Source of the DNA: Piscirickettsiaceae bacterium
GTDB lineage: Bacteria; Pseudomonadota; Gammaproteobacteria; Nitrosococcales; Methylophagaceae
NCBI GenBank assembly: GCA_013215775.1
Contig: JABSQO010000013.1
Coordinates: 1 to 54,298 of the forward strand
DNA: 54,298 nt
Reading direction: 5' to 3'
Every line of letters starts with the position of its first letter. The first letter of the stretch is position 1. A program made the translations under genes and the position numbers. Of this stretch, positions 16,591-54,298 are shown one piece after another. The notes below the pieces were generated by a model that saw only the letters and a list, made by a program, of their open reading frames with translations, had not been told where the DNA came from and did not search any database.

Positions 16591-16603
16591 GCTCGTCTTC
16601 TTA

Positions 16604-16679
<76 letters not shown>

Positions 16680-16686
16680 GATTTAA

Positions 16687-16715: not shown

Positions 16716-16792
16716 GTATCTGAAAGATGTGTACGAGTGCATCTGAAACCGCTTATTATTATCTCCATTTTTCAATGCACATTAAGCTAATT

Positions 16793-40008: not shown

Positions 40009-40163
40009 TGCTAGAATCCTCTATTAGAAACTGCAGTTTTAGTATGCTCTAATCCCACAAAAAAGGACACTTTTCTCAGGGTATGTCGTTGTTCGTAATT
40101 GTCATAATCTAAAGCAAGAACCTACAATATGTATTCTATTCTTGGATCTTGAAAATACTGTTC

Positions 40164-40197
40164 TTGACAGGACGATATAAATAGGACTATTTATATC
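40164..40197 (+). promoter_or_regulatory. Promoter with long perfect palindrome
   Basis: GATATAAATAG (40174-40184) and CTATTTATATC (40187-40197) are perfect 11-bp arms around GA. A consensus -35, TTGACA (40164-40169), lies just upstream, putting the palindrome over the spacer and -10 area. The first gene (pterin dehydratase) starts 29 bases on. It does not match the Fur, IscR, FNR, NsrR or LexA consensus as recalled. Confidence 0.65.
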
Positions 40198-40226
40198 TAT
40201 GACTACCTTTTTATTGGAGAAATGTC

Positions 40227-40610
40227 ATGGGTTGGAGAGAGAAAACAGAAGAACAAACCTATAGCGATGATGAAATTGAAGCCCGATTAAAGGATGAGCT
40301 TCCCCATTGGTATCTTGAAAATGGTTGGATACGGCGTAAATACAAAACAAGTAGCTGGAAAGGAACGTTAATGATAGTGACCACCGTTGGCCACTTAGCC
40401 GAAGCAGCCTTTCATCATCCTGATATGAGTTTATCTTATGCCTTTGTAATTGTTAAATTAATGAATCATGCAGCCAAAGGTATTACCAATAAAGATTTCG
40501 AATTAGCGGGCAAAATCGAAGATGTCATTATGTGGCAACCTGGAACAGAAGGTGGAGCATTGGTTGGTACCCCTGATGATCCTCGATTTAAATATATTAA
40601 GTATGACTAA
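40227..40610 (+). CDS. 4a-hydroxytetrahydrobiopterin dehydratase (PCD/DCoH family)
   Basis: Pterin-4a-carbinolamine dehydratase-like protein of 127 residues, which recycles pterin cofactor in aromatic amino acid hydroxylation. The motif AEAAFHHPDMSLSY has the catalytic His pair and Pro, and the end WQPGTEGGALVGTPDDPRF is an extended tail. No phenylalanine hydroxylase gene is near, so its role may be in another pterin or molybdopterin context, as seen for orphan PCD proteins. First gene of the cluster with DUF6494 (45 bases), ferritin-like and VOC proteins; palindromic operator upstream. GGAGAA binding site precedes the ATG. Confidence 0.88.
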   Translation: MGWREKTEEQTYSDDEIEARLKDELPHWYLENGWIRRKYKTSSWKGTLMIVTTVGHLAEAAFHHPDMSLSYAFVIVKLMNHAAKGITNKDFELAGKIEDVIMWQPGTEGGALVGTPDDPRFKYIKYD

Positions 40611-40654
40611 TTTATAGAAATTTTATCCAAAATTTACGTTATCAGGAGGATGTT

Positions 40655-40861
40655 ATGAATGAAGACACGTTGAATATGGAAGTGAGAAAATATCTTAAAA
40701 AAGTCGGAATTTCATCCCAACGAGAAATTGAACATGCCGTTGTCAAAGCTGTTGAAAATGGTGCCTTAAATGGTACAGAGATATTGGAAGTACATATGAG
40801 CCTGACAGTGCCATCGTTGAATATAAATTATCAAATTGATGGCGAAATAGCACTAGAGTAA
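40655..40861 (+). CDS. DUF6494 family protein (copy 2)
   Basis: Same family and length (68 residues) as the protein at 20423-20629. MNEDTLNMEVRKYLKKVGI, SSQREIEHAVVKAVENGAL, NGTEILEVHMSLTVPSL and YQIDGEIALE align end to end with it. AGGAGGATGTT gives a strong binding site. Here it lies between the pterin dehydratase and the ferritin-like gene. Two paralogs in different redox/iron contexts suggest a small adaptor or cofactor role, but nothing biochemical is known. Confidence 0.85.
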   Translation: MNEDTLNMEVRKYLKKVGISSQREIEHAVVKAVENGALNGTEILEVHMSLTVPSLNINYQIDGEIALE

Positions 40862-40912
40862 TAATTGATAATGGCTGAATAGCAGACATATTTATGAAAA
40901 AGGAGATCTATT

Positions 40913-41356
40913 ATGACTGAGTTAAATTTTGATACTAAAGCGGTTATCGCAGTATTAAATGAAATCCTTGAAACGGAGTTAGCTGGCGTAGTTCGCTACT
41001 GTCACTATTCGTTAATGGTTTTTGGTTATGGGCGTATTCCTATTGTTTCTTGGATGCGTAGTCAAGCAGATGAATCACTGTTACATGCACATGAGGCAGG
41101 TGAATTGATCACTCATCTAGAACATCATCCATCATTGGGTATTGGCCCCTTACTTGAAACCCATAAACATGATGTTGGAGACATCTTACGTGAATCATTA
41201 GAGCATGAAATACTGGCATTATCTGCCTACCGCCGGTTATTGGAGCTTGTTGAAGGTAGCAGTGTGTTGTTGGAAGAGTATGCACGTCGTTTAATTTCTC
41301 AAGAAGAAATGCATGTTGGAGAGGTTCGTAAAATGTTAAGAAGCCCGGGTGAATAA
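40913..41356 (+). CDS. Ferritin-like/bacterioferritin protein
   Basis: Four-helix-bundle protein of 147 residues, related to bacterioferritin and Dps-type proteins. Helix 1 carries EILETELAGVVRYCHYS, helix 2 has the metal-type E-x3-H motif ADESLLHAHEAGE, helix 3 EHEILALSAYRRLLELVEG and helix 4 LEEYARRLISQEEMHVGEV (E-x-H-x3-E). These Glu and His residues could form a di-iron ferroxidase site. Likely iron storage or detoxification. A strong AAGGAGAT binding site precedes ATG 40913. It follows DUF6494; a DUF2237 relic follows it. Confidence 0.85.
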   Translation: MTELNFDTKAVIAVLNEILETELAGVVRYCHYSLMVFGYGRIPIVSWMRSQADESLLHAHEAGELITHLEHHPSLGIGPLLETHKHDVGDILRESLEHEILALSAYRRLLELVEGSSVLLEEYARRLISQEEMHVGEVRKMLRSPGE

Positions 41357-41361
41357 TCGCG

Positions 41362-41403
41362 GTTGATGCGTCAGTTAATCTGTTTGCTAAGCGACGAGAA
41401 TAA
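41362..41403 (+). pseudogene. Relic of a DUF2237 gene (5' end)
   Basis: The 42 bases match the start of the DUF2237 gene at 20688-20729 at 32 of 42 positions (22 of 24 over the best part). The reading is VDASVNLFAKRRE followed by TAA, against IDASLNVFGEVLES in the intact gene. It lies between the ferritin-like and VOC genes in the second DUF6494 locus, and marks a lost DUF2237 copy. Confidence 0.6.
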
Positions 41404-41404
41404 T

Positions 41405-41770
41405 ATGCACCTTGACCATACCATTATTCCAGCACGAAATAGCGTTAGTTCAGCTGCATTTTATGCTGATATTCTTGGGCTGACTAATCTTGGACTTTAT
41501 GAGCATTTTCATGCTGTAGCAGTTGATGACACGTTAAAGCTATTGTTTAGCCAGAAAGAAAGTTTTGAATCACGACACTATGCATTTATTGTGACTGAAC
41601 AGGAGTACACGGAAATATTTAGCCGAATCAACAATAACCCTGCGGTCAGTTTTGGTGATAGCCCTGCTGACAGGACAAATAAACAGGTCTATTTGTCAGA
41701 TAGTAGAGAGGGGTTTTATTTCGACGATGAGAACGGACATATTTTGGAAGTCATCAAGTTGATTGAATAA
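41405..41770 (+). CDS. VOC (glyoxalase/dioxygenase) superfamily protein
   Basis: Protein of 121 residues with the beta-alpha-beta-beta-beta fold. It opens MHLDHTIIPARNSVSSAAFYADILGL, the usual N-terminal metal-His and helix of the superfamily; FDDENGHILEVIKL at the C-terminus supplies the usual metal Glu. HYAFIVTEQEYTEIFSRI is in the middle. Substrate cannot be inferred; fosfomycin/glyoxalase-like, or a catechol-type member. Start at ATG 41405 chosen over the earlier in-frame TTG at 41363. Two bases follow the DUF2237 relic's stop, so it may have been expressed with that gene. Confidence 0.8.
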   Translation: MHLDHTIIPARNSVSSAAFYADILGLTNLGLYEHFHAVAVDDTLKLLFSQKESFESRHYAFIVTEQEYTEIFSRINNNPAVSFGDSPADRTNKQVYLSDSREGFYFDDENGHILEVIKLIE

Positions 41771-41911
41771 AAAGCTTTATAATTTCTTTCGTCTTTACAT
41801 TCTAGAACGGACTGTTATTTGGATGTTACATCAAACTTATAAGAGATAAAATTTCCTCAGTAATAGATAATTAATTTAGACTGATAGCTTTGATAGAATA
41901 AGTCGAACACT

Positions 41912-42958
41912 ATGCGATATAACATACTCGGGAAGTCAGACCTAAAAGTCAGTGCTATTTGTTTAGGAACAATGACATTTGGCGAGCAAAATACTGAACA
42001 AGAAGGGCATCTACAGTTAGATTATGCTCTTGACCAAGGCATCAATTTTATTGATACGGCAGAGTTATATGCTATACCACCTAAAGCGGAAACCTATGGT
42101 CGAACGGAACAAATCGTTGGTGCTTGGTTGGCGAAACGAGGTCGGCGTGATGATATTGTTCTGGCGAGTAAAATTGCCGGCCCTGGAGCTGATTGGGTAG
42201 CTCATATCCGAGGAGGAAAAACACGCTTTAACGCTGATCATATTTCGCCAGCATTAGACGCGACTCTAGATAGGTTAAAGACGGATTATATCGATCTTTA
42301 TCAATTACATTGGCCGGAAAGGAATACTAATTACTTTGGTGAATTGAGTTATCAAGCAGTAGAAGATGAAGAAAAACTCACGCCTATTCACCAAACACTT
42401 GAAGCACTTCAACAACAGGTGAAAGCGGGTAAAATTCGATATATTGGCTTATCTAACGAAACCCCTTGGGGAATAATGCAATTTTTAGCGATTGCGAAAC
42501 AATATGACTTACCGGCCATCGTGTCTGTCCAAAACCCGTACAGTTTGATTAATCGAAGTTATGAAATTGGTTGTGCTGAAATTAGCCATCGTGAAAATAT
42601 AGGTTTATTAGTTTATTCACCACTGGGTTTTGGTGTGTTGACGGGAAAATATTTGAAAGGTGTCCAACCAAAAGGTGCGCGTATTACATTGTGGCCAGAT
42701 TATAGCCGATATAGTAATGAACAAGCGGTATTAGCAACACAATCCTATGTTGATTTGGCTAGAAAACATGGTTTGGATCCTGCTCAAATGGCATTAGCAT
42801 TTGTGAATCAACAATCGTTTGTCGCCTCTAATATTATCGGTGCGACCAATCTGACGCAGTTAAAAATTAATATTGAAAGTATTAAGCTAACACTAGAAGA
42901 AGATGTGCTTGCTGGTATTGAGAACATACATCAACAACATCCGAATCCTGCACCCTAA
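41912..42958 (+). CDS. tas: Aldo/keto reductase, Tas-like
   Basis: NADPH-dependent oxidoreductase of 348 residues, close in sequence to E. coli Tas (346). TIM-barrel features: LGTMTFGEQNTEQEGHLQLDYAL at the start, catalytic Asp/Tyr in FIDTAELY and Lys in LASKIAGPG, His in LYQLHWPERNTN, and the NADPH-binding GLSNETPWGIM, QNPYSLINRSYEIG and LAFVNQQSFVASNIIGATN. Physiological substrate unknown. Starts ATG 41912; convergent with ygfZ, 2 bases apart at the ends. Confidence 0.92.
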   Translation: MRYNILGKSDLKVSAICLGTMTFGEQNTEQEGHLQLDYALDQGINFIDTAELYAIPPKAETYGRTEQIVGAWLAKRGRRDDIVLASKIAGPGADWVAHIRGGKTRFNADHISPALDATLDRLKTDYIDLYQLHWPERNTNYFGELSYQAVEDEEKLTPIHQTLEALQQQVKAGKIRYIGLSNETPWGIMQFLAIAKQYDLPAIVSVQNPYSLINRSYEIGCAEISHRENIGLLVYSPLGFGVLTGKYLKGVQPKGARITLWPDYSRYSNEQAVLATQSYVDLARKHGLDPAQMALAFVNQQSFVASNIIGATNLTQLKINIESIKLTLEEDVLAGIENIHQQHPNPAP

Positions 42959-42960
42959 TT

Positions 42961-43935
42961 TTATTCAGGTATATCTTGATTTTCAAGGGTGATTTGAGCA
43001 CCATTTTCAAGGAAGATAGCTACTGTTCTATTCGTTAGTTTCAAACTAATTAATAGCTGTAGACTATCTTCATTTTTGAGATTAATGCGTACTATTTGGC
43101 CAGCGACAGAGCCTTCTTTAGTGAATATATTACTCGCAATATCAGGTAATGTATTTGTTTGGGCGTGAGCTACAAACATTCTCCGACTTGGTTTGCCAAG
43201 ATAATGGAGTCTGGCAACTACTTCTTGTCCGGGGTAACATCCTTTTTTAAAGCTAACTCCACCGACTAAATCAAGATTGACTTGCTGAGGTGTAAATTTT
43301 TCTGTGCTATCAGGGAAAATCATCGGTAATCCGGCTTCTACAGCCAATTGTTCCCACATTGCATCTGATGTGATCTGCCATTGTTGTTTTAGTAATGCAT
43401 TGGCTAATTCAACAGCCTTTTGAGAGGGGCAAATATAGAGATAATGCGGATGTGTACTTGGGTATTTCATTAAGAACTGATCATCTTGCTCATTGGCTTG
43501 GTAGTCCTCAATAGGCAGTGCCAATGAATCTATAGCGCTCCCTGTCGCAGGCGTGAGACTAATACAGACAATATCCTGACTGATATCGGTAATGGTTACT
43601 TTTGATCTCAAGATATACATGCTCAAGCGTTGTTGAAGCAGCGTGCACATGTTTAAGGGTAAGACTAGCTGATAACTATCTTGGCGGCGAACCAGTACAA
43701 ACAATGAAAATAAACGTCCTTTAGCATTACAAAAGCCATTCAATTGACCTTGATTTACATTTAAAGCATTTACGTCATTGGTAAATAGATTTTGCAAAAA
43801 GTCTTGGGCATCTTCACCCGCAACCTGTAGTACACCAAGCTGTGTTAATGGTGCTACGCAGGATATTGATGGCGAATACTCATTTTTCTTAGTCATTGTT
43901 TGCTGTTCTATCAATGTTTGCCAGCTATCAATCAT
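42961..43935 (-). CDS. ygfZ: tRNA-modifying/folate-binding protein YgfZ
   Basis: Folate-binding protein of the GcvT-like (COG0354) family, 324 residues, helping assemble or repair certain Fe-S enzymes. The diagnostic motif KKGCYPGQEVVARLHYLG with its key Cys is near residue 235. The N-terminus DSWQTLIEQQ, then LGVLQVAGEDAQDFLQNLFTNDV, and GRLFSLFVLVRR in the middle fit. E. coli YgfZ is 326. Divergent from ygfX, near nadB, the usual gammaproteobacterial neighbourhood. Confidence 0.92.
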   Translation of the reverse strand: MIDSWQTLIEQQTMTKKNEYSPSISCVAPLTQLGVLQVAGEDAQDFLQNLFTNDVNALNVNQGQLNGFCNAKGRLFSLFVLVRRQDSYQLVLPLNMCTLLQQRLSMYILRSKVTITDISQDIVCISLTPATGSAIDSLALPIEDYQANEQDDQFLMKYPSTHPHYLYICPSQKAVELANALLKQQWQITSDAMWEQLAVEAGLPMIFPDSTEKFTPQQVNLDLVGGVSFKKGCYPGQEVVARLHYLGKPSRRMFVAHAQTNTLPDIASNIFTKEGSVAGQIVRINLKNEDSLQLLISLKLTNRTVAIFLENGAQITLENQDIPE

Positions 43936-43993
43936 AATATTTTAAGCTTAAGTTAAAAGATGCCGTATTGTATCTCACTCTGCTGGTTAATAA

Positions 43994-44449
43994 ATGGAAT
44001 TAGCTTCAATGATAAGGATAGTGTTTAGTCTTGATATTGCTCGATCAAATCACTTACTCAGCTATTTAGTCATCTTACATGGAATGATGTTGATAACAAT
44101 GGTGAGTTTATCGACAGGCTTTTGGTGGTCAATTGTTGCATGTGTGCTGATTGGTTTGAGTTTGCGTCATTATTGCCAACGGCATCAATGGCTACAAAGT
44201 ACACAGTCAACTGTTAAGATTGAGAGAATGGCAAGTGGACAGTGGTCTTTAAGGTATCGTGATAATAGACAATCTTTAGGATTAACGCTGGTAAAAAGTT
44301 TTGTAAGCCCTCAGATCGTTATTTTATATTTTAAGGGTTCAAAATGGTGGGCTCACAGTTCGGTCACTATTGTGGCGGATGCTGTTGATGCTGAATTATT
44401 TCGACAATTACGTGTGTATTGTCGTGATCCTAAGACTTTCCAGCAATAA
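43994..44449 (+). CDS. YgfX/CptA-like membrane protein
   Basis: Protein of 151 residues with two membrane helices near the N-terminus (LLSYLVILHGMMLITMVSL, WWSIVACVLIGLSLRHY), then a soluble beta-rich domain (ERMASGQWSLRYRDN, LTLVKSFVSPQIVILYFKG). This fits the YgfX family (CptA), reported as a toxin inhibiting FtsZ/MreB polymerisation, or simply a partner of the flavinylation factor SdhE. The usual sdhE gene is not found next to it. ATG 43994 or 44009 may be the start. It overlaps the 3' end of convergent nadB by 20 bases. Moderate confidence from weak sequence conservation. Confidence 0.7.
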   Translation: MELASMIRIVFSLDIARSNHLLSYLVILHGMMLITMVSLSTGFWWSIVACVLIGLSLRHYCQRHQWLQSTQSTVKIERMASGQWSLRYRDNRQSLGLTLVKSFVSPQIVILYFKGSKWWAHSSVTIVADAVDAELFRQLRVYCRDPKTFQQ

Positions 44450-46031
44450 TGGTGTCGGCAGGCGGATGGTCATTATCTATTTCAGGATAATCTAAGGTGT
44501 AATGCAGACCGCGACTTTCTTTACGTTGTAATGCGGAGATTATGATCAATTCTGCAACATCAGCAAGGTTACGTAATTCAAGAAAATCGCTGCTAATACG
44601 GTGTTGGCTATAATAATCATTTATTTCTTGCTGTAATAATTTGAGTCGTTGTTGTGCTTTATGTAGCCGTTCATTTGTACGTACTATGCCAACATAATCC
44701 CACATAAAACGGCGAAGTTCATCCCAGTTATGACTGACAGAAATAGCCTCTTTTGCGATCTGGACACGGCTTGCATCCCATGCTGGAATTGCTTCAATGT
44801 CTTTAGATAATGGTAATTGTTGTTTTATATGTTGTGCAGCAGAGTGGGCAAATACCAGACATTCTAAAATTGAATTACTCGCCATACGATTAGCGCCATG
44901 TAGACCAGTATGTGCTGTTTCACCGATAGCATACAATCCGGCAATATCAGTTTGTCCATAAATATCTGTCATTACTCCACCGCAGGTATAGTGGGCCGCA
45001 GGTACAACAGGAATTGGCTCTTGAGTCATATCAATACCAAATCCGAGACAGCGCTGATGAATGGTGGGGAAGTGTGCTTCAATAAATTCTTTCGATTGAT
45101 GGCTAATATCAAGATAAACACAATCATCACCGAGCCGCTTCATTTCATGGTCAATCGCTCGTGCCACAATATCTCTTGGCGCTAACTCCGCCTGAGGGTG
45201 GAAATGTTCCATAAATTCAGAGCCATCTGCCAATAATAATTTGGCTCCCTCGCCACGTAATGCTTCTGTGATCAAAAATGATTTGGCTTTGTGATGATAG
45301 AGGCAAGTAGGGTGAAACTGAATAAACTCCATATTGGCTACGCGGCAACCTGCACGCCAACCCATTGCAATTCCATCACCCGTAGCGACGTCAGGATTAC
45401 TAGTGTAGAGGTATGCCTTTCCTGCACCTCCGGTGGCTAATACAGTAATAGGCGCTGTAAATGTCAGTGGGGTATCTGTTTTAATATCCAGTACATAACA
45501 GCCAAGACAATGGTTATCTTGATGGTTCAATTGTTTTCGACTGGTAATCAGGTCTATGCCAATATGATAAGGAAATAAATGAATGTTAGGGTGTATTTGA
45601 GCTTTGCCTAATAAAGTGGTTTCAACTTCTCGTCCAGTGGAATCCGCTGAATGAATAATTCGTCGATGACTATGGCCACCCTCCTGAGTGAGGTGATATG
45701 TTTCAGATGTAATGCCATCTTTGGTAAAAGACACACCTTGATCAATTAACCATTCAATACTGTTACGCGCATGTTCAACCGTAAAACGCACGATTTCTTC
45801 GTTGCATAAATCCGCACCTGTCTGCAAAGTATCATCAATATGAGATTGTAGAGAATCTGCTTGATCTAATACAACTGAAATGCCGCCTTGTGCGTATAAA
45901 GATGCACCTTCTTCAAGTTGATCTTTAGATAGCACGGCTACTTGAGCATGATCGGCTAATTGTAGTGCTAGTGTTAAACCAGCGGCACCGCTGCCAATAA
46001 TAAGAACGTCAAAGTGATGTGTTGCAGTCAT
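44430..46031 (-). CDS. nadB: L-aspartate oxidase
   Basis: Flavoenzyme oxidising L-aspartate to iminoaspartate for quinolinate and NAD synthesis. Length 533 (E. coli 540). FAD motif FDVLIIGSGAAGLTLALQLAD, YAQGGISVVLD, the active-site region GGHSHRRIIHSADSTGREV, VLATGGAGKAYLYTSNPDVATGDGIAM, FIQFHPTCLY, HYTCGGV and HGANRMASNSILECLVF are all present. Divergent from rpoE, the conserved arrangement in gammaproteobacteria. Its end overlaps ygfX by 20 bases. Confidence 0.97.
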   Translation of the reverse strand: MTATHHFDVLIIGSGAAGLTLALQLADHAQVAVLSKDQLEEGASLYAQGGISVVLDQADSLQSHIDDTLQTGADLCNEEIVRFTVEHARNSIEWLIDQGVSFTKDGITSETYHLTQEGGHSHRRIIHSADSTGREVETTLLGKAQIHPNIHLFPYHIGIDLITSRKQLNHQDNHCLGCYVLDIKTDTPLTFTAPITVLATGGAGKAYLYTSNPDVATGDGIAMGWRAGCRVANMEFIQFHPTCLYHHKAKSFLITEALRGEGAKLLLADGSEFMEHFHPQAELAPRDIVARAIDHEMKRLGDDCVYLDISHQSKEFIEAHFPTIHQRCLGFGIDMTQEPIPVVPAAHYTCGGVMTDIYGQTDIAGLYAIGETAHTGLHGANRMASNSILECLVFAHSAAQHIKQQLPLSKDIEAIPAWDASRVQIAKEAISVSHNWDELRRFMWDYVGIVRTNERLHKAQQRLKLLQQEINDYYSQHRISSDFLELRNLADVAELIIISALQRKESRGLHYTLDYPEIDNDHPPADTIIAGKS

Positions 46032-46082
46032 AAAGTTAGGATACAGGTAGAATGGACATACTGATTATTTTGCACTGTTTAA

Positions 46083-46110
46083 GGAACAAAGTTAAATCAT
46101 TATGGTCAAT
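46083..46110 (+). promoter_or_regulatory. Putative sigma-E promoter of rpoE
   Basis: GGAACAA (46083-46089), 16-base spacer, TCAAT (46106-46110) resembles the sigma-E consensus GGAACTT-N16-TCnAA. It lies about 54 bases upstream of rpoE, where autoregulation is expected. Confidence 0.5.
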
Positions 46111-46132
46111 CAGACTACAAACAAATATATTC

Positions 46133-46156
46133 TCCGGCAGTATGGAGATAGCCGGA
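46133..46156 (+). promoter_or_regulatory. Hairpin covering the rpoE ribosome binding site
   Basis: TCCGGC (46133-46138) pairs with GCCGGA (46151-46156) around a 12-base loop. The GGA in the right arm is the best Shine-Dalgarno match, 7 bases ahead of ATG 46164, so the fold would hide it. Confidence 0.45.
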
Positions 46157-46163
46157 ATACAGG

Positions 46164-46745
46164 ATGAATGTGGATTTAGAGTTAGTACAGCGTGTACAAG
46201 CGGGTGATAAAAAGGCATTTGATGTGTTGGTATTGAAATATCAACAGCGAATTGTTCACGTTATCACTGGCTTTGTGCATGATCCGGTTGAAGCGTTGGA
46301 TGTCGCTCAAGAGGCATTTATTAAAGCGTATCGTGCTATTCCAAATTTTCGAGGTGACAGTGCATTTTATACATGGCTCTATCGTATTGCGATTAACACA
46401 TCAAAAAATCATTTAACATCGAGAGCAAGAAGACCACCAGCAATGGATGTTGATGCGATGGATGCGACAAATTTTTATGATGCGCATGAGCTAAAAGAGT
46501 TTGACACTCCAGAAAACAGCTTGATGAGTGATGAATTAGAACAGAAAATTCATCAAGCGATTGAAGACTTGCCTGAGGATACTGCGACAGCAATTAAATT
46601 ACGTGAATTTGAAGGCATGAGTTATGAAGAAATTGCACAGGTAATGGATTGCCCAATAGGTACCGTCCGATCGAGAATATTTCGTGCTCGAGAAGCGATA
46701 GATAAACAAATACAAGAAATAATGGGTGAAGGAGATCAACAATGA
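46164..46745 (+). CDS. rpoE: RNA polymerase sigma-E factor (RpoE/AlgU)
   Basis: ECF sigma factor controlling the envelope stress response, 193 residues. Region 2: LVLKYQQRIVHVITGFVHDPVEALDVAQEAFIKAYRAIPNFRGDSAFYTWLYRIA; region 4: LPEDTATAIKLREFEGMSYEEIAQVMDCPIGTVRSRIFRAREAI. E. coli RpoE is 191. Ends in a 4-base overlap with rseA. Likely autoregulated from the sigma-E-like promoter upstream and possibly controlled at translation by the hairpin at 46133-46156. Confidence 0.98.
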   Translation: MNVDLELVQRVQAGDKKAFDVLVLKYQQRIVHVITGFVHDPVEALDVAQEAFIKAYRAIPNFRGDSAFYTWLYRIAINTSKNHLTSRARRPPAMDVDAMDATNFYDAHELKEFDTPENSLMSDELEQKIHQAIEDLPEDTATAIKLREFEGMSYEEIAQVMDCPIGTVRSRIFRAREAIDKQIQEIMGEGDQQ

Positions 46746-47305
46746 CAGTCAATCAAAATGAATTATTGTCGGCGTTAGTTGATGGGGAATTGCAAGGTCA
46801 AGAATTAGATCAGGTTTTGCAATTTCTGACTAAAGATGAACTGGCAATGCAACAGTTACAGCGTTATCAGTTATCAAGTGATGTATTAAATGGCCATGGA
46901 GCTGTGAGTCAGAATGCAAGTTTGAGTGAACAAATTTCTGCTGAAATAAGTAATGAGCTTGCTTACGTTTTAGCGCCTGAACGTAAACAATCAGCACAGA
47001 TTATTTCCTTCCCACAACAATTTTGGAAGCAAACAGCTAGTTTAGCTATTGCTGCCTCAGTTGGTGCATTAGCAGTAGTCGGTGTCATAAGCCAACCTCA
47101 GAATCAGTTAGTGCCCGTAGCGCCATTAGCAGTAATCGAAGCGCCAGTAACGGCTACAGCAGCATATGCGAGTAACAGATGGACTGTCGGTGAGCAGGAA
47201 GTTGAAGATCGATTGAACACTTATTTGGCCGATCATAATGAGTATGTGGGTGAAGCAAGTGTGTTCTCGTATGCTCGGGTTGTTTCTTATGATATGGGAC
47301 GATAA
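46742..47305 (+). CDS. rseA: Anti-sigma-E factor RseA (MucA)
   Basis: Inner-membrane anti-sigma factor of 187 residues that holds RpoE until cut by DegS and RseP. The N-terminal cytoplasmic part LLSALVDGELQGQELDQVLQFL is the sigma-binding domain; a membrane segment (ASLAIAASVGALAVVGVI, about residues 100-117) follows and the periplasmic tail ends in ...VSYDMGR. DegS cleaves in the periplasmic region in relatives. Overlaps rpoE by 4 bases. Confidence 0.93.
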   Translation: MTVNQNELLSALVDGELQGQELDQVLQFLTKDELAMQQLQRYQLSSDVLNGHGAVSQNASLSEQISAEISNELAYVLAPERKQSAQIISFPQQFWKQTASLAIAASVGALAVVGVISQPQNQLVPVAPLAVIEAPVTATAAYASNRWTVGEQEVEDRLNTYLADHNEYVGEASVFSYARVVSYDMGR

Positions 47306-47308
47306 CTG

Positions 47309-48298
47309 ATGAGGCGATTGTTCCGAATATTGTTAAGCTTTTGCATACTATTCTTTAGTATTAATATCTACGCTGAGACGGAGACGGATGCGGTAAAAAT
47401 GTTAGAACGCATGGGCGTGGTGGCTAAGCAATTGAATTACGATGGTGTGTTTTCATATCGAGCTGGCAAGAGATTGCAGTCGATCCGTATTATTCATCGC
47501 GCTGATCAACAGGGTGAAATTGAACGGTTGATTTCATTAAACGGTGAGGCTAGAGAAGTTATTCGTAATAACGATATGGTGACGTGTATTTATCCTGAGG
47601 GTAAAAGTGTTCAGCCAAATCGTCGCCCATTGGGCCGAGGTTTCCCAACGGATTTATTGAGTCGTTTAAGATCGGCTACTGCCTACTATCAACTAACATT
47701 GGGCGAAGAAGAGCGGGTGGCGGCCCATCATACACAGGCTTTAATTGCCGTGCCAATAGATAATTATCGTTATGGTTATCGTTTATGGGTTGATAAAGAT
47801 AGTCAATTATTATTGCAATCAGATTTAGTGAATGAGCATGGTGAGGTATTAGAAACCTTTGCTTTTTCAGCGATAGAAATGGGCCTTCATATTCCTGATG
47901 TGTTACTACAACCTCAAATGAGTGGCAATGCGATGACATGGAACCGAGCTGAACAAAAGATGCGTTCTAAAATGATAGCTCAGAAAAAATCTTCTTCGTG
48001 GCAGGTAACATGGTTGCCAGAGGGTTTTGAGTTAGTCGTACAGCAAAATAGAATCAAAGCAAAAAATGGCGCATCGGTTGAACATAAAGTTTATAGCGAT
48101 GGTTTAAGCTCAATTTCTATTTTTATCGAGAAAATCAGAGCAAGGCATAGTCATTTGCATGGTGGTTCAAAAAGGGGTGCAGTGAATGCCTTTGGTACAA
48201 TTATTAATGCTCATTTTGTAACAGTGGTGGGTGGCGTACCTGCACGCACAGTCGAAAAAATGGGTAATTCCATTAGCCTTGTTAATGTAGGTAAATAA
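47309..48298 (+). CDS. rseB: Sigma-E regulatory protein RseB (MucB)
   Basis: Periplasmic protein of 329 residues that binds RseA and shields it from DegS; senses mislocalised lipoprotein/LPS. Signal peptide MRRLFRILLSFCILFFSINIYA; lipid-sensing LolA-like N-domain (MLERMGVVAKQLNYDGVFSYRAG, SIRIIHRADQQGEIERL, DNYRYGYRLWVDKDSQLLLQSD) and the smaller C-domain (WQVTWLPEGFELVVQQNR, YSDGLSSISIFIEK). E. coli RseB is 318. Three bases separate it from rseA. Confidence 0.95.
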   Translation: MRRLFRILLSFCILFFSINIYAETETDAVKMLERMGVVAKQLNYDGVFSYRAGKRLQSIRIIHRADQQGEIERLISLNGEAREVIRNNDMVTCIYPEGKSVQPNRRPLGRGFPTDLLSRLRSATAYYQLTLGEEERVAAHHTQALIAVPIDNYRYGYRLWVDKDSQLLLQSDLVNEHGEVLETFAFSAIEMGLHIPDVLLQPQMSGNAMTWNRAEQKMRSKMIAQKKSSSWQVTWLPEGFELVVQQNRIKAKNGASVEHKVYSDGLSSISIFIEKIRARHSHLHGGSKRGAVNAFGTIINAHFVTVVGGVPARTVEKMGNSISLVNVGK

Positions 48299-48300
48299 TT

Positions 48301-48720
48301 GTGATAGAACAAAAAGCCAAAGTCGTAAGTTTTGATGATGAAACCGTTTGGTTAGAGGCTGAACGCCAATCAACCTGTAGTGGATGCCAAGTTAGACAAG
48401 GCTGTGGAACGGGCATGCTCGCTAAGCATGTAGGACAGAAATTTTCGCGTATAACGGTCAAAAAAACGAGTGATGTTGAAATCGGTCAACAAGTTCAGTT
48501 AGCTATTCCTGAAGAAACTTTATTGCAAGGTGCTGCATTAATGTATCTGTTGCCATTGGTCTTGATGTTTATCTTTGCCGCCATTGCACAAAGTTTAAAT
48601 TTTAATGAAGCGTTGGAAATTATTGCTGGAATAAGTGGTCTATTTATTGGGTTTTATTGGGTTCGGATTCGATTACGGAATAAAAAAGATGGCTTTCAAG
48701 CCAAGATTGTAGAGGAATAA
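48301..48720 (+). CDS. rseC: RseC/MucC-like sigma-E regulator
   Basis: Inner-membrane protein of 139 residues. The N-terminal cytoplasmic part has a Cys cluster TCSGCQVRQGCGTGML, as in RseC; two membrane helices follow (AALMYLLPLVLMFIFAAIAQ and EIIAGISGLFIGFYWVRI). The start is GTG 48301, 2 bases after rseB. In E. coli RseC is linked to thiamine and SoxR reduction; link to Rnf is reported there, and rnf genes lie in this window too. Confidence 0.9.
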   Translation: MIEQKAKVVSFDDETVWLEAERQSTCSGCQVRQGCGTGMLAKHVGQKFSRITVKKTSDVEIGQQVQLAIPEETLLQGAALMYLLPLVLMFIFAAIAQSLNFNEALEIIAGISGLFIGFYWVRIRLRNKKDGFQAKIVEE

Positions 48721-48722
48721 AA

Positions 48723-50150
48723 ATGAAGAATGTGAAAATTTGGAGTGGCGCATGTATTTTCTTAGTGTGGTCATTATTGAGTATGAATATTTATGCTCAA
48801 GCCTTACCTGAATTTACTGAGTTAGTAGCTGATAATAGTGCAGCTGTAGTGAATATCAGCACCACAACCAAGCAGAAAAGCAATCGTAAAATGCCGAGGT
48901 TGCCACCTAATATGCCTAACCCAGAAGGCACACCTTTTGAAGACCTCTTCAAGCACTTTTTCGACCAACCAGGACAACCGCAACCGCAACCGCGCAATGC
49001 TCATTCACTAGGTTCAGGTTTTGTATTGTCATCAGATGGGTATATTTTAACTAACCATCATGTGATTATGGATGCTGATGAAATTATTGTTCGTTTCAGT
49101 GATCGAAATGAGCTCGTGGCAAAAGTATTAGGTAGCGATGAGCGTAGTGATGTGGCGCTATTAAAGGTAGATGCAACAGGATTAAAAGCCGTCAAATTAG
49201 GCGATTCAACTAAGGCAAAAGTAGGAGAATGGGTGCTGGCAATCGGTTCCCCATTTGGATTTGACCATTCAGCAACTGCCGGTATTATCAGCGCCTTGGG
49301 ACGTAGTCTCCCAAGTGATAGTTATGTACCGTTTATTCAGACTGATGTTGCGATTAATCCGGGAAATTCTGGTGGTCCATTATTTAATATGGACGGTGAA
49401 GTAATTGGCATCAACTCCCAAATATATAGCAGAACAGGTGGGTTTATGGGGTTGTCATTTGCAATTCCTATGGATGTCGTTATGAATACGGTCGCTCAAA
49501 TTAAATCACAAGGGTATGTTAGCCGAGGCTGGTTAGGTGTTGTTATTCAAAATGTAACGCGTGAATTAGCAGAATCATTTGGTTTAAAAAAACCTCATGG
49601 TGCATTAGTGTCAAGAGTATTACCGGATAGTCCTGCGGCAAAAGCAGGTTTTGAACCAGGTGATGTGATTTTGAAATTTAATAGTAAAAAAATCCCGAGT
49701 TCATCAGCATTACCACCGATTGTTGGTAGAACGGAAATCGGTACAACGGTTCCAGTTGAAGTCATGAGACAAAAAAGTCGACAAACGATTTTTGTTGAGG
49801 TTGAGCAATTACCAGAAGAAAACGATATGGTTAAAGCGAGCCATGACTCTGGTCGTTTGATTGATGAACGTTTAGCCATTGAAATTGCTAGCTTAGATGA
49901 TGAGAAGCGAGAACAATATGGTGTTGATACTGGCGGTGTAGTGGTTGTTTCGGTAGAGCAAGGTGTGGCTGCGGAAGCAGGAATACGTCAAGGTGATGTG
50001 ATCTTAAGTATTAATAATCAGAAAATTGATGATGCGAAACATTTTTTAGATATTGCCAAAAAATTACCAACAGACAAAGCAATTCCAGTCTTAATACAAC
50101 GAGGTGGTGGCGCTAGATTTTTAGCATTACGATTGTCTGAGAAGGGGTAA
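48723..50150 (+). CDS. mucD: Periplasmic serine protease DegP/MucD-like
   Basis: HtrA-family protease and chaperone of 475 residues for misfolded envelope proteins. Signal peptide (about 1-25), trypsin-like domain with the catalytic triad in LTNHHVIMDADE (His), RSDVALLKVD (Asp) and INPGNSGGPLFN (Ser), followed by two PDZ domains (GWLGVVIQNV, SRVLPDSPAAKAGFEPGDVIL; and GVVVVSVEQGVAAEAGIRQGDVILSINNQ). The last gene of rpoE-rseABC-degP. In many gammaproteobacteria lepA follows; here the mobile element starts instead. Confidence 0.96.
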   Translation: MKNVKIWSGACIFLVWSLLSMNIYAQALPEFTELVADNSAAVVNISTTTKQKSNRKMPRLPPNMPNPEGTPFEDLFKHFFDQPGQPQPQPRNAHSLGSGFVLSSDGYILTNHHVIMDADEIIVRFSDRNELVAKVLGSDERSDVALLKVDATGLKAVKLGDSTKAKVGEWVLAIGSPFGFDHSATAGIISALGRSLPSDSYVPFIQTDVAINPGNSGGPLFNMDGEVIGINSQIYSRTGGFMGLSFAIPMDVVMNTVAQIKSQGYVSRGWLGVVIQNVTRELAESFGLKKPHGALVSRVLPDSPAAKAGFEPGDVILKFNSKKIPSSSALPPIVGRTEIGTTVPVEVMRQKSRQTIFVEVEQLPEENDMVKASHDSGRLIDERLAIEIASLDDEKREQYGVDTGGVVVVSVEQGVAAEAGIRQGDVILSINNQKIDDAKHFLDIAKKLPTDKAIPVLIQRGGGARFLALRLSEKG

Positions 50151-50732
50151 ATTGCTTGACACTATTGCTGTGACACCACGTGAAGAAGCATTAGTGAGTG
50201 TAATAAATAAAGAATAATTATATTCAGTGTTTTTAAAAATCTCCGAGGGTGGATAGAGATACTCGGGGCTCAATAATTCTCTATAATGAAGAATTTTTAT
50301 ACTTTCCGGTAATAAACAGATAATAGTGTTTTTATAATATCTTCATTCTTTATGTATCTTAAGTTTGACAGCATATATAATGTGTTCCATTTGAAATATG
50401 CAGCCACGTAAATACACAACTAATAAAGGCTAGTCTTTAGCCATATTATTTGTAATCAAGGATACAAAAAATCAAAAACATAAGAAACTTTTCGATCATT
50501 GCCCACATGAATAATAGAGCTTTTGTCAAGCCAAGACTGACGATGCCAAGCAAGCGCTAAAACCCACGCAGTAGAAAGCTATCAGAGCGACAACCACAGA
50601 CAAGCGAAACCCGTCAAAGCGAATGTAAGCCGTAAAATGTTGTACCAAGTTGAGTACCAAATTCTCACAAGTCTCTCTTCACAATAAATTTGGTACGTGT
50701 TATAAAATAACTGGCACAACGAGGAGAGCAAT
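50151..50732. other. Intergenic region at element boundary
   Basis: The 582 bases between degP and the integrase hold no supported gene. A 21-codon frame (50152-50217, LLDTIAVTPREE...) of unknown nature follows degP. A weak hairpin (CTCCGAG with CTCGGGG, about 50241-50269) may terminate transcription. Base composition turns AT-rich from about 50.28 kb. The junction with the integrated element should be here, but no direct-repeat partner is visible in the window. Confidence 0.5.
50642..50706. repeat. GTACCAA/TTGGTAC repeat group before integrase
   Basis: GTACCAA at 50642-50648 and 50654-50660 in direct repeat, the second extended as GTACCAAATT, which is repeated inverted as AATTTGGTAC at 50697-50706. 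Likely binding sites for integrase or its regulator, 27 bases ahead of the integrase start. Confidence 0.55.
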
Positions 50733-51947
50733 ATGGCATTGACAGATGCTTGGCTAAAAGCAAACAGCGGCAGGGCTAACAACAGTCTTGTGGAAAAGAA
50801 CGACCGAGACGGCCTGAGCGTAAGAATCTCACCAAGAGGCAAACTTGTATTTCAAGTTAGGTACAGATTCAAGAGGAAAGCCAAGAGATTAAAAATTGGT
50901 ACATATCCGAGCATGACTTTAAAAGAGGCTCGCGATGAGGCGGTAGTGATGAAAGGTCACTTAGATCAAGGTTACGATCCGGCAGTGGTTTTCTTAGCTA
51001 GAAAGATAGACGCAAGTGACCAACATTCGGTAGAAGAAGTTGTCAGAGAATGGTACGCAAAAGAATGTACCAAAGATTCAAAAGCTCACAAGCAGATATT
51101 AAGGTCATACGAGATTCACGTATTCCCAATTATAGGTAAGCAAGCTGTAAAGGCGATGACCTCACGAGAATGGATTACGATAATAGAAGACGTGGCAAAG
51201 CTGAGACCACAGATTGCATCAAGACTGCTAACACAGACAAAGAAGGTGTATAGGTGGGCTTACAAGCGCAACTACACCATCAATAAGCCATTAGAAGGTC
51301 TGACTGCCAGTGCTGACTTCAAGATAGCCAAACCCAAGTCAAACAGAACGCTGTCGGACGATGAGCTTGTTATGGTGTGGAAAGCATTGCGTGGTTGTAA
51401 GATGGCAGAGAAGAATAAAATGTTCATCAAGCTGTGCCTGCTATTTGCTAATAGAACAAGTGAGTTGAGATTGTCCAAAAGAGAGGACTTTGATTTCGAC
51501 GAAGGGTTGTGGACAGTGCCGTGGCAAAATCACAAGCTGGGTGAGAAGACTAAGATGCCAATTGTCAGACCAATACCTAAAGAGTTTGAGGTCATCATTA
51601 AACACCAAATGGCAATCTCACCTAGCAATGTTCTGATGTTTGTTAATAGAGACAAGCCTAATGAAGTGTGGCCCGTAGGTGCAAGCGTATCGCTGCCATA
51701 CATTCTGAACGCTTGGATATTTAGGCACTTAGAGCATAAAATGAAGTCGTGGTCTCTTCACGACTTGAGGCGCACTGCCAGAACTAAGTTCTCAGCTATC
51801 ACTGAGCGTGACGTGGCAGAGATAATGCTCGCTCACTCCTTGCCTGGAGTACAGGGCGTGTATGACTTGCACAAGTACGTTGACGAGCAACGAAAGGCAT
51901 ATACAAAATGGTGGTACGTGCTGGAAGAAATAGTCGGTAAGATTTAA
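50733..51947 (+). CDS. P4-type tyrosine integrase
   Basis: Site-specific recombinase of 404 residues. N-terminal Arg-binding domain (LSVRISPRGKLVFQVRYRFKRKAKRLKIGTYPSMTLKEARDEA) typical of P4-family integrases, a SAM-like core-binding domain, then the catalytic domain with Arg in ANRTSELRLSKRED, the H-x2-R motif in HDLRRTARTKF, His in LAHSLPGVQG and the Tyr nucleophile in LHKYVDEQRKAY. AGGAGAG precedes ATG 50733. Rich in AGA/AGG codons, unlike its neighbours. It faces AlpA tail-to-tail (4-base overlap). No tRNA is adjacent. Confidence 0.93.
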   Translation: MALTDAWLKANSGRANNSLVEKNDRDGLSVRISPRGKLVFQVRYRFKRKAKRLKIGTYPSMTLKEARDEAVVMKGHLDQGYDPAVVFLARKIDASDQHSVEEVVREWYAKECTKDSKAHKQILRSYEIHVFPIIGKQAVKAMTSREWITIIEDVAKLRPQIASRLLTQTKKVYRWAYKRNYTINKPLEGLTASADFKIAKPKSNRTLSDDELVMVWKALRGCKMAEKNKMFIKLCLLFANRTSELRLSKREDFDFDEGLWTVPWQNHKLGEKTKMPIVRPIPKEFEVIIKHQMAISPSNVLMFVNRDKPNEVWPVGASVSLPYILNAWIFRHLEHKMKSWSLHDLRRTARTKFSAITERDVAEIMLAHSLPGVQGVYDLHKYVDEQRKAYTKWWYVLEEIVGKI

Positions 51948-52132
51948 CCATGATCGCCAAGCTCCCATTCCTCAACGGTTTCGTAAGACCATCGGTTAAG
52001 TGAGCCTGTTGCTGGAATGGTTGGTTTTGGGAATGGGTGACTCGATCTGTTCTGCCACCTATTGAGAGTGCGTGAAGATATTTTGTACCGCTCTCCCAAT
52101 TCTTTTGATGTAAAGAAGCCTGTTATTGTCAT
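51944..52132 (-). CDS. AlpA-like regulator/excisionase
   Basis: Small MerR-like helix-turn-helix protein of 62 residues: FFTSKELGERYKISSRTLNRWQ, then SHPFPKPTIPATGSLNRWSYETVEEWE, the AlpA pattern with the wing Pro and Trp. Such proteins act as excisionases or integrase regulators of P4-like elements. AGGGGGA precedes ATG 52132; a good sigma-70 promoter lies upstream (52182-52210) and an inverted repeat (AAGTCA-N4-TGACTT, 52152-52167) lies between them. Confidence 0.85.
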   Translation of the reverse strand: MTITGFFTSKELGERYKISSRTLNRWQNRSSHPFPKPTIPATGSLNRWSYETVEEWELGDHG

Positions 52133-52181
52133 TTTTAAATCCCCCTAATACAAGTCACCAATGACTTACTAATGGGGCGGC

Positions 52182-52210
52182 ATAATAGATGATGTTTTTT
52201 TTAATTGCAA
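52182..52210 (-). promoter_or_regulatory. Sigma-70 promoter of alpA
   Basis: On the minus strand TTGCAA (52210-52205), 17-base spacer, TATTAT (52187-52182). An inverted repeat AAGTCA-N4-TGACTT (52152-52167) between the start and the gene could be an operator. Confidence 0.65.
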
Positions 52211-52242
52211 TAGGTAGTTTCGTGAACTGCGTCACATTATAG

Positions 52243-52255
52243 TTTGGTGACCAAA
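52243..52255. repeat. TTTGGT-G-ACCAAA palindrome upstream of alpA
   Basis: Perfect 6-bp arms around one G. The arms are close to the TTTGGTAC/GTACCAAA repeats before the integrase, so one protein (AlpA or the integrase) may bind both places. Confidence 0.45.
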
Positions 52256-52277
52256 AAAAAGGCCGCTTTCGCGACCT
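52253..52277 (-). terminator. Intrinsic terminator after XRE regulator
   Basis: On the minus strand AGGTCGC, GAAA loop, GCGGCCT then eight T (52260-52253). It lies 33 bases past the XRE stop. Confidence 0.9.
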
Positions 52278-52309
52278 GATTTAATACTATATCGTTACTA
52301 GATATAAGG

Positions 52310-52699
52310 CTATAAGGACTTTGAAAAATCCTTTAACTTTTTCTGTTGTTCTTCTGTGGCGATCTTAGGATTGTCATTCTCACTGTCAGAATTTCGTCTG
52401 ATAAATTCAATCATCTCCATTTCATTTTCCGTAATAACATTTCCCAGAGTAGCCTCAAGCGCTTCCCATGTTTCGGGCATGTACTCAAGCATGGCAATTC
52501 TAAGCATGTTGACTGGATCAACGCGAAGCGCTATAGCAAGCGGTCTAATTTTATTAATAGGTACTTTTGTTTTGTTCTGCTTAAACATAGTAATGATATT
52601 TGGCTTTGTGTAGCCGATCTCTTCTGAGATTTCTTTTTGTGTACGACCGCAAACCGCTAGTTGCTTTGCGATATATTCGTGTAGTTTTACCTGTGCCAT
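52310..52699 (-). CDS. XRE-family transcriptional regulator
   Basis: Protein of 129 residues with a Cro/CI-type helix-turn-helix: LHEYIAKQLAVCGRTQKEISEEIGYTKPNIITMFKQNKTKVPINKIRPLAIALRVDP. The C-terminal third (ENEMEMIEFIRRNSDSEN) is helical and acidic, with no S24 domain. Likely the element's maintenance regulator. GAGGGGAAATAAA precedes ATG 52699. Divergent from the plus-strand genes beginning at 53064; the region between would hold its targets. It has a strong terminator. Confidence 0.88.
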   Translation of the reverse strand: MAQVKLHEYIAKQLAVCGRTQKEISEEIGYTKPNIITMFKQNKTKVPINKIRPLAIALRVDPVNMLRIAMLEYMPETWEALEATLGNVITENEMEMIEFIRRNSDSENDNPKIATEEQQKKLKDFSKSL

Positions 52700-53063
52700 T
52701 TTATTTCCCCTCTATATATTCCTTGTTGGTGTATTCGATTGTTAATTCGACGCGCCAGCTCCAGGGCGCACACATCGTTTCGATGCGTTGGTGTAAGATT
52801 ACAAAATAATCACTACATGTACAAGTATAGATTGGAAGATGTTGTTAAACGGTGACTTACTGAACCCGCACAAGTCCACATAAAGATAAGTAAGTAGTGA
52901 ATTATTAGGTGGCGTTGCCAATTCAAGTGGTAATGATCCAAATCGTGGTTGATTTATTCTCCTTAATGTGAGTAAGGCTATCGTTAATATATTTCTTGAT
53001 TTCCCTGATTTGCTTGTCTATTATGTCTTTGCTTAATTCAAGCAAGCAAAGGGAAATGTATAT
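52700..53063. other. Divergent control region of the element
   Basis: These 364 bases between the XRE gene and the next plus-strand gene contain no supported coding sequence. Visible are a GC-rich imperfect hairpin (GCGCC...GGCGC, near 52752-52770), a short one (CATCG-TTT-CGATG) close after, a TACATGTA palindrome (52814-52821) that could be a repressor operator, and the hairpin at 53027-53051. Confidence 0.5.
53027..53051 (+). promoter_or_regulatory. Hairpin just ahead of a ribosome binding site
   Basis: CTTTGCTT (53027-53034) pairs with AAGCAAAG (53044-53051) around a 9-base loop. The AAAGGGA Shine-Dalgarno element of the gene at 53064 begins inside the right arm. Confidence 0.5.
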
Positions 53064-53264
53064 ATGACGACAGAAGAAACAACAATAACGGCGCGTATAG
53101 AGACGGATTATGATTTGGAGCAGATAGTAGAAATGGTTGAGGGTTTAACAGTTATTTCCAATGTCGATCTCGGAATGGCATCTGTGAGTATATTAGAGGG
53201 TGACTCTGGCAGAGTGACGCTAATTACGACGGCAAACGGAAAGTCAGCATTAGTTCACGCATAA
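53064..53264 (+). CDS. Hypothetical small protein
   Basis: Protein of 66 residues, MTTEETTITARIETDYDLEQIVEMVEGLTVISNVDLGM, then SVSILEGDSGRVTLITTANG. Acidic, no membrane segment or signal peptide; predicted helix followed by two to three strands. No family recognised. AAAGGGA binding site partly in a hairpin. It is followed by a strong terminator 20 bases on, so it is likely a separate transcript from the next gene. Codon use is like the rest of the element. Confidence 0.6.
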   Translation: MTTEETTITARIETDYDLEQIVEMVEGLTVISNVDLGMASVSILEGDSGRVTLITTANGKSALVHA

Positions 53265-53284
53265 ACTATTACCTGAAAAAAATA

Positions 53285-53317
53285 GCGCTGGGTGCTTTTA
53301 GTTCCAGCGTTTTTTTT
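53285..53317 (+). terminator. Intrinsic terminator
   Basis: CGCTGG (53286-53291) pairs with CCAGCG (53304-53309), followed by eight T (to 53317), with A residues on the left that can extend the stem. Confidence 0.85.
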
Positions 53318-53374
53318 GTAATATAGAAAGTAAGTCATAAATGACTAAGAAACGAAACAACTGGGGAGAGATGA

Positions 53375-54298
53375 ATGTCATCATTAGATATAAACGTACT
53401 GCGAGAATCTATCGGAAACATCACTAAAATTCTATCGGGCAGAGGAATTAAAGTGACACAGCGAGGCTCGCGAGCCTACGTTCAGTCTACAAAAGAAGGT
53501 GTGCCAATTAGAGTCAACCTTCCATACATACCAGATACAGCAAGTGAGACCTTAATAGACGCGATTAACGGCTTCTTGGATCACGAGGTTGGCCACTTGA
53601 TGTTTTCGGACTTCAGCACAATCTCGCAAGCAATGAAGCACGGCAAAGCAGCCGCAAATATGCACAATATAGTTGAAGACACCTACGTTGAACGTATGAT
53701 GGCTAAGCGGTTTAAGGGTTCTGCTATGAATCTCGATAACGTCGGTAAGTTCTTCTTAAGCAAGTACACGACACCAACAGTTGAAGAGGCCATTTCGGAA
53801 GGCGACATGGCGAAGATAGGCGCTTGTTTGATGGTTCCAGCTATTAGAGCGTGGGCAGGACAGCAAATATTTATAGACTACATGGAAGACAAGTGGGAGT
53901 TGATCGCCGACATTACAAAGAAAATACCGCAAGAGTTGCGCGACAAACTTCCGACAATTAGAAACTCAAAACAGGCTCTTGATTTAGGACTTGAAATTCA
54001 TCAATGCTTAAAAGAAAAAGAAGAAGAGCCCGAAGATGAGAAGGATAGCGGCGACGACTCTAAGAAGTCAGAGAAAGATGGTGGCAGCAAGGGTGAGTCC
54101 GATGATGACAAAGGCCACAAGGGTGACGACGATGAAGGTGATGTTGGTGACGAAGAAGAACCAGAACCGGAAGAAGAACCAGAGCCAGAGCCAGAGTCAG
54201 AAGGCGGTTCAGATTCGAGCGGCGAGGGTGATGAGTCCGATGAGGGTGAGGCCAAAGACGGTGAGGGTGAAGATGAAGATGAAGGTGGGGGCGAAGAT
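53375..54298 (+). CDS. CobT-like metallopeptidase/VWA-type protein, N-terminal part
   Basis: Open at the right edge; 308 residues present. The N-terminal domain has the zinc-type motif HEVGH at residues 70-74 (LDHEVGHLMFSDF) and 27 residues on NIVEDTYVE (98-106), the Glu-bearing second motif of this metallopeptidase group. From about residue 215 a low-complexity, mostly acidic tract follows (runs of EEP, EPEP, GDD, GEGD). This is the layout of CobT-like proteins of phages and mobile elements, in which a VWA domain comes next, beyond the window; these usually pair with a CobS/MoxR-type AAA+ ATPase. GGGGAGAG precedes ATG 53375. A minus-strand frame across the acidic tract is only its shadow. 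Confidence 0.75.
   Translation, partial: MSSLDINVLRESIGNITKILSGRGIKVTQRGSRAYVQSTKEGVPIRVNLPYIPDTASETLIDAINGFLDHEVGHLMFSDFSTISQAMKHGKAAANMHNIVEDTYVERMMAKRFKGSAMNLDNVGKFFLSKYTTPTVEEAISEGDMAKIGACLMVPAIRAWAGQQIFIDYMEDKWELIADITKKIPQELRDKLPTIRNSKQALDLGLEIHQCLKEKEEEPEDEKDSGDDSKKSEKDGGSKGESDDDKGHKGDDDEGDVGDEEEPEPEEEPEPEPESEGGSDSSGEGDESDEGEAKDGEGEDEDEGGGED

Follow-up and report, generated by a model that had tools for sequence, protein, structure and literature searches.

The cobT-like gene at the end of the sequence analysed here, together with the cobS-like gene that follows its second half, probably encodes a remodelling machine of the MoxR-VWA type, with a zincin-type N-terminal domain, which acts in early phage replication and is not a cobaltochelatase. 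This sequence, referred to here as the window, is the complete contig C5 (54,298 bases), and belongs to a host genome of 2.22 Mb in 48 contigs, which is 99.82% complete. CobT-CobS pairs are already known from phages, under a questionable label. What this analysis adds is the case against cobalamin as an explanation for this host, and a link between the N-terminal domain and that of CobT and, less surely, NorD.

A divided gene in an integrated phage

The cobT-like reading frame begins with an ATG and is open up to the contig end, over 308 amino acids (aa), and given that the window is a whole contig, the gene has been cut by the assembly, inside its low-complexity tract. The initial annotation had described a frame that runs off the window, with an HExxH motif, a downstream NxxED motif, and an acidic tract, all of which were confirmed in the sequence, with this tract forming the tail of the frame (aa 213–308; Table 1). 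The matches to the Pfam CobT family (PF06213; residues 9–123, E 1.2e-10, 41.9 bits against a cut-off of 26.1) and to PHROG 1576 (residues 5–303, E 1.6e-80, profile positions 6–310 of 729) identify the product as a homologue, rather than a chance resemblance.

PHROG 1576 has two strong places in the host genome, the window and C26:17494–18417 (−), which sits at the end of a contig of 18,419 bases and covers profile positions 425–728; up to about 115 positions of the profile fall between the two pieces. The C26 piece contains the CobT_C/VWA domain (PF11775, E 2e-36), in which the DxSxS pattern of the MIDAS reads DCSGSMGG, and is adjoined by a CobS-like AAA+ gene with AAA_5 and CbbQ_C domains. 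Both the VWA domain and the CobS/MoxR-like AAA+ gene had been forecast to lie beyond the window. Both terminal portions of the viral CobT-like family profile are matched, and a MoxR-class AAA+ gene stands beside a VWA protein with a MIDAS, as in the MoxR AAA+/VWA pairs. A third, weak match to PHROG 1576, on C12, is the NorD-like protein of the host (L004), whose closest match among solved structures is NorD (E 2.2e-46), in an alignment confined to the VWA half.

The closest relative, a viral contig of IMG/VR (L017) whose N-domain is 64% identical, carries all the parts of CobT in one frame of 705 aa, and its gene order (integrase, repressor-like gene, unbroken CobT, CobS, and sigma-like gene) is the same as that observed here. 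This order supports the view that the window and C26 halves belong together, across a junction that we infer. The CobS-like gene is followed on C26 by genes for a sigma-70-like protein, the DNA polymerase III alpha subunit, a gp32-like single-stranded DNA-binding protein, a 5'-3' exonuclease, and RecA, and further on by weak similarities to SbcC/Rad50, Mre11, and RuvC, and by a class I NrdA. In the relatives, CobS follows CobT on the same strand at 83 of the 88 loci with at least 1 kb of following sequence (within 400 bases in 76), while DnaE is present at 73, and a sigma-like gene at 67, of the 81 loci with at least 3 kb, counts that include duplicates and some loci also used to build the profiles. 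These counts make the CobT-CobS pair an almost invariable component of the replication operon.

The mobile element of the initial annotation proved to be a prophage, most likely that of a siphophage, about 105 kb long (3.8 + 18.4 + 83.1 kb), the pieces of which are found at the end of the window, on C26, and at the end of C23, contigs that are separate in the assembly. It is related to SSU5, RHEph10, and Nickievirus. The evidence of its integration is a fall in the G+C content from about 0.45 to 0.39 near C23:67,000, phage genes that extend from the C23 end towards lower coordinates (matches to the portal, large terminase, central tail fibre J, DnaB, and primase), and an att-like repeat of 38 bp, shared by the window and C23:67684–67721, at the 5' end of lepA (TIGR01393, 983 bits), which scores 51, in comparison with 28 for the best of 96 other stretches. 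The end of C23 contains an apparent NrdA C-terminus, and then NrdB. The insertion lies, most likely, between a gene of the degP/htrA family (TIGR02037, over the cut-off) and lepA. Both ends of the prophage carry a 38-bp copy of the stretch coding for NFSIIAHI, with five mismatches; the lepA frame spans positions 15145–16968 (−) of the segment C23:50784–70783 (L169), and the phage end seemingly supplies it with a new TTG start. A tRNA attachment site was discarded, as there is no tRNA near the integrase and the Rfam search was empty at 40000–54298. No match above 25 bits, the level of the NorD-like proteins, was found in 28 other genomes of the host genus. The small frame between the repressor and cobT has no family match in the Pfam and PHROG profile searches; small frames of similar size occupy the same place in two relatives (L014 and L016) and in an Acinetobacter plasmid (L162).

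Table 1. Features of the prophage end carried by the window.
Feature	Position	Strand	Evidence
CobT-like N-terminal half: zincin-like domain (predicted; aa 1–212) and start of the acidic linker	53375..54298	+	Pfam, PHROG, L017
HEVGH codons (aa 70–74)	53582..53596	+	Sequence; conservation among relatives
NIVED codons (aa 98–102)	53666..53680	+	Sequence; E101 in 83/83 relatives
Acidic low-complexity linker	54011..54298	+	49 of 96 residues D or E; matching region disordered in the L017 model (pLDDT about 40)
Small frame (66 aa) between repressor and cobT	53064..53264	+	Reading frame
HTH repressor-like gene, divergent from cobT	52310..52699	−	Weak HTH matches
Excisionase-like small DNA-binding protein	51944..52132	−	phrog_4745, phrog_1553
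Tyrosine integrase of the prophage	50733..51947	+	Pfam and PHROG matches
att-like repeat (38 bp), taken as the left prophage end	50471..50508	+	33/38 identical to C23:67684–67721

The HExxH domain in phages, plasmids, and cellular machines

Relatives of the CobT-like protein are widespread in mobile elements. Thirty phage records match in tblastn, under labels that include CobT, cobaltochelatase subunit, and porphyrin biosynthesis protein, together with 1,143 plasmid records, 920 of which cover at least 80% of the N-domain; many of the listed plasmid matches, of 106–128 kb, are taken for phage-plasmids (one region, that of L162, was read). The viral CobST pair of SSU5, RHEph10, Nickievirus, and their kin is the same pair as that described here, and lies upstream of the DNA polymerase III alpha gene in the records read.

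The HEVGH motif had been expected to be conserved among the homologues, and this is the case in most of the relatives seen: 80 of the 83 distinct phage N-domains retain HExxH (from 98 rows; 80 of 285 viral-contig relatives were examined), a count obtained in partly biased searches. The viral search pattern contained D[HS]E and the bacterial-genome pattern DHEV, motif letters that make these rates lean high, including the 23 intact loci out of 23 in the named bacterial genomes. The least biased subset, the distinct viral loci with the NxxED pattern, is small and intact throughout (11/11), and HExxH and the downstream ED motif are also present in all 11 of the more distant relatives that were aligned, which come from other genomes of the same class and family (the class being taken for Gammaproteobacteria), as well as in the viral sequence L012. 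By residue, H70 is kept in 81 of the 83 phage N-domains, E71 in all of them, H74 in 80, and E101 and E106 in all 83. The two histidines, the glutamate, and a downstream acidic residue that define a zincin in sequence terms (H70, E71, H74, and E101) are all present in the window protein, with E101 the candidate third metal ligand.

The motif is intact here and has been lost in four groups. Among the 12 named phage records read for the state of the motif (out of 30), five are intact and seven have lost it, that is, five Nickievirus records (SEISK or SEIAK) and two Stenotrophomonas phages (REVST); the other losses are found in L045 and L046 (HEVAR) and in the Acinetobacter plasmid L162 (QEVAK, assigned by alignment). 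The glutamate of the motif is kept in all four of the groups that lost histidines, which would be unusual in a peptidase, and points to a structural part for E71. A homologue of the HTH repressor lies upstream of cobT at 79 of 89 distinct intact loci, in comparison with one of seven distinct motif-lost loci, while a tyrosine integrase is present in 17 of 34 motif-intact records, in comparison with one of eight. This trend is weak, given that there are only about four loss events, that the sequences are not independent, and that L162 has lost the motif, yet keeps both repressor and integrase.

The aligned columns of real CobT proteins (the 30 best scorers among 94 same-phylum genomes with matches) contain no HExxH in any of the 30, while the glutamate of AVEQARVE or AMExAR is kept; in the solved cobaltochelatase CobT (9uka), for example, GLGDSMALRQARHN and AVEQARVEA occupy the motif positions, again with no HExxH. 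In the 14 NorD-like proteins from the host and its kin, the motif reads HMAAH in 13 and HMASH in one, with a methionine at the position of the catalytic glutamate in 14 of 14; EDARVE is found in 10. In the NorD-like protein of the host (L004, C12:76419–79775), HMAAH and FIEDARVE stand where the phage protein has HEVGH and NIVED, a hint that its N-domain may be a degenerate zincin-like domain.

In the comparison of profiles by hhalign, the broad HExxH family matches CobT with a probability of 92%, the N-domain of the 14 NorD-like proteins with 57% (E 1.1e-4), and the whole NorD-like protein with 44%, whereas nine unrelated or reversed control profiles reach 1.5% at most; restricting the family to phage sequences lowers the probabilities to 45% (CobT) and 11% (NorD-like N-domain). 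On these profiles, the phage N-domain appears clearly related to that of CobT, and tentatively to that of the NorD-like proteins. We read this as one shared domain, from which the motif is absent in the cellular machines, with the order of loss or gain an inference. No earlier description of this link was found in the literature searched, much of which was available in part, nor was any paper found on the solved CobNST structures. In a 2023 study, the part of NorD that precedes the VWA domain is described as lacking obvious homology, and as a domain that is not conserved (PMC9976466). A match of the N-domain profile to AcrIIA26 (PDB 9zq6_B, E 0.0032) covers only the stretch after HExxH and is probably due to chance; the matches of the same profile to CobT (E 0.027 and 0.086) also begin after the motif.

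The N-domain model, built from 65 sequences, has a pLDDT of 90, and places HExxH on a helix (58–77) and E101 and E106 on another (91–112). Metallopeptidase folds fill 10 of the first 12 rows of the VIA-align search of this model, at weak scores (Z 3.8–5.0), with the best match, jannalysin, being weak (Z 5.0) by the tool's own note. These rows include selecase-type metallopeptidases (4jix, 4qhi, 4jiu, and 4qhg), aminopeptidases and LTA4 hydrolases (6ydx, 3cia, 5nie, and 2xpz), and ArdC (6sna and 6i89), while row 10 (1rp3) has an unrelated fold; 3iuk (DUF885), which we take to be a zincin, would make eleven of the 12, and the fold labels are in part our assumption. Foldseek gave no match for the N-domain at E ≤ 0.001, and CobT is absent from the 50 rows listed. 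The full-length model of L017 has an unstructured linker at about 217–370, and its VWA domain matches the midasin MIDAS (Z 23) and the NorD entries (Z 17–22).

Other systems share parts of this architecture. NorQ/NorD (PDB 9qhd) likewise combines a MoxR AAA+ protein with an N-domain, a disordered linker, and a VWA domain. The cobaltochelatase CobT/CobS (PDB 9uka, 21vu, and 9ujv) has homologous VWA (L017, E 1.5e-20) and AAA+ (E 2.4e-32) domains, and CobT also has an acidic linker. A phage family labelled 'peptidase' (PHROG 459) shares the HExxH region (aa 53–115, E 4e-7) in a weak and partial match. VWA proteins of large conjugative plasmids have a similar N-domain and VWA domain, and 817 of the 864 plasmid records matching one of them (L152) are typed as conjugative. 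In an Aeromonas conjugative plasmid (L161:6569–10731), the VWA relative has a YqaJ recombinase and a DUF3150 gene as neighbours, with no CobS gene annotated next to it, a context which is, once again, that of DNA metabolism.

The losses of histidine with retention of the glutamate, the lack of the motif in CobT, and the presence of HxxxH alone in the NorD-like proteins would all agree with a pure remodelling ATPase, in which the N-domain is a folded adaptor and HExxH is structural, with no catalytic zinc. The conservation of both histidines and the downstream glutamate across very different elements is, however, hard to explain without a metal, which makes this alternative rather unlikely.

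Metal insertion and the cobalamin label

A second alternative retains the metal and dispenses with the cutting: on the NorQD model, the pair would be a chaperone for metal insertion or activation, acting on the di-metal site of NrdB, for example, with HExxH carrying the metal. NorQD is described as inserting iron (PMC13036017), and the MoxR pair of Bacillus phage 0305phi8-36 was named a metalloprotein chaperonin as early as 2007 (PMC2147016). The position of NrdB near the phage end of C23, its presence in eight of the eight named related records searched, and the retained glutamate and weak zincin fold, which allow for a non-catalytic metal site, are consistent with this proposal. The survey of 37 related records (of at least 96 kb, some possibly fragments) recovered NrdB in 22, a ribonucleotide reductase (RNR) similar to RTPR, below the cut-off, in 13, and neither in two. 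The lack of NrdB in 15 of these 37 CobT-like records makes it an unlikely general target, and RNR was discarded in this role; the gene order, in turn, ties CobST to DnaE and not to RNR. This alternative is decidedly improbable.

A label often attached to these genes implies a viral cobaltochelatase, in which CobST recruits the CobN of the host and raises the supply of cobalamin during infection. A 2021 PLoS Biology paper makes this proposal for viral CobST (PMC8651126), which is also favoured by the homology to Pfam CobT, CobT_C, and CobS, and by the RTPR-like RNR, possibly dependent on B12, of the 13 records mentioned above. The initial annotation had seen no sign of cobalamin synthesis in the element, and this observation was extended to the whole host genome, in which no match to CobN (PF02514) was found. 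Of the 13 genomes that carry such proteins (12 with an HExxH protein, and G352 with a C-terminal match only), CobN is absent from 10, the host included, and present in three. A further case is phage PhiR41_1 (CobT motif HEVAH), whose recorded host is Escherichia coli K-12 MG1655: E. coli was included in the set of 14 control genomes, and CobN was not matched in it either.

The NCBIfam equivalog models argue in the same way. The CobT model (TIGR01651) gives 112 bits for L017, scored in place of the split gene of the prophage, against the 759 required, and the CobS model (TIGR01650) gives 112.1 bits for the CobS-like protein of the prophage itself against 558.55, whereas six of six controls, drawn from the 30 real CobT proteins, pass the CobT model. 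The NrdA of the phage is of class I, which is independent of B12 (TIGR02506, 517 bits, cut-off 341), and none of the 37 related records reaches the cut-off of the B12-dependent RNR models (TIGR02504 and TIGR02505). The RNR class switches among the CobT-bearing records while CobT stays. With no CobN, low equivalog scores, and a class I NrdA in this host, and with HExxH kept in most phages and absent from real CobT, a role as cobaltochelatase is rejected for this host, and is very improbable as a reading of the viral pair. The admission of the initial annotation that the real role was not known stands in part, with the cobalamin role now unlikely for this host. Cobalamin may matter, as a side issue, in the 13 records with the RTPR-like RNR.

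Proposed mechanism and significance

The remodelling machine with a zincin-type domain, which is the reading preferred here, draws on the order of the domains (zincin-like N-domain, acidic linker, and VWA/MIDAS) and on the place of cobT in an early replication operon, beside a repressor and upstream of the DNA polymerase III alpha gene. For NorQD, it has been proposed that the AAA+ ring drives a movement of the linker and N-domain relative to the VWA domain (PMC13036017), and MoxR-VWA pairs have been presented as a chaperone with its co-chaperone, accompanied in some cases by a zincin-like peptidase encoded in a gene of its own (PMC7159879).

By analogy with NorQD, CobS would drive CobT to remodel a bound protein. 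A CobS hexamer may grip the VWA domain of CobT, as NorQ grips NorD, and the hydrolysis of ATP would then shift this domain in relation to the N-domain, through the flexible linker, and thereby remodel the protein bound by the MIDAS and the N-domain. The outcome suggested by the zinc-type site is cleavage or the transfer of a metal, and in most members of the family the bound protein may also be cleaved, or have a metal removed or supplied, at a putative zinc site formed by H70, H74, and E101, with the participation of E71. The most likely target would be a protein that takes part in phage replication or in the lysogeny switch. No large gene separates cobT from the repressor-like gene before it, and a part in this switch fits loosely with the pattern of the repressor and integrase.

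Two more specific versions of this mechanism can be considered. It is possible, if somewhat doubtful, that the phage CobT-CobS pair is an ATP-driven zinc metallopeptidase machine, and that the N-domains of CobT and NorD are relatives without the active site. ImmA cuts ImmR, and the neighbouring phage repressor is a candidate substrate that would be cut at induction; this is quite unlikely, and the cleavage of the repressor was demoted as the main reading, because L162 keeps both repressor and integrase without the motif.

Cobalamin or porphyrin labels are common for the CobS and CobT genes of phages and phage-plasmids, and these labels mislead if the products are remodelling or peptidase machines. 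The shared N-domain, if true, would indicate a common origin for MoxR-VWA systems such as NorQD and CobST.
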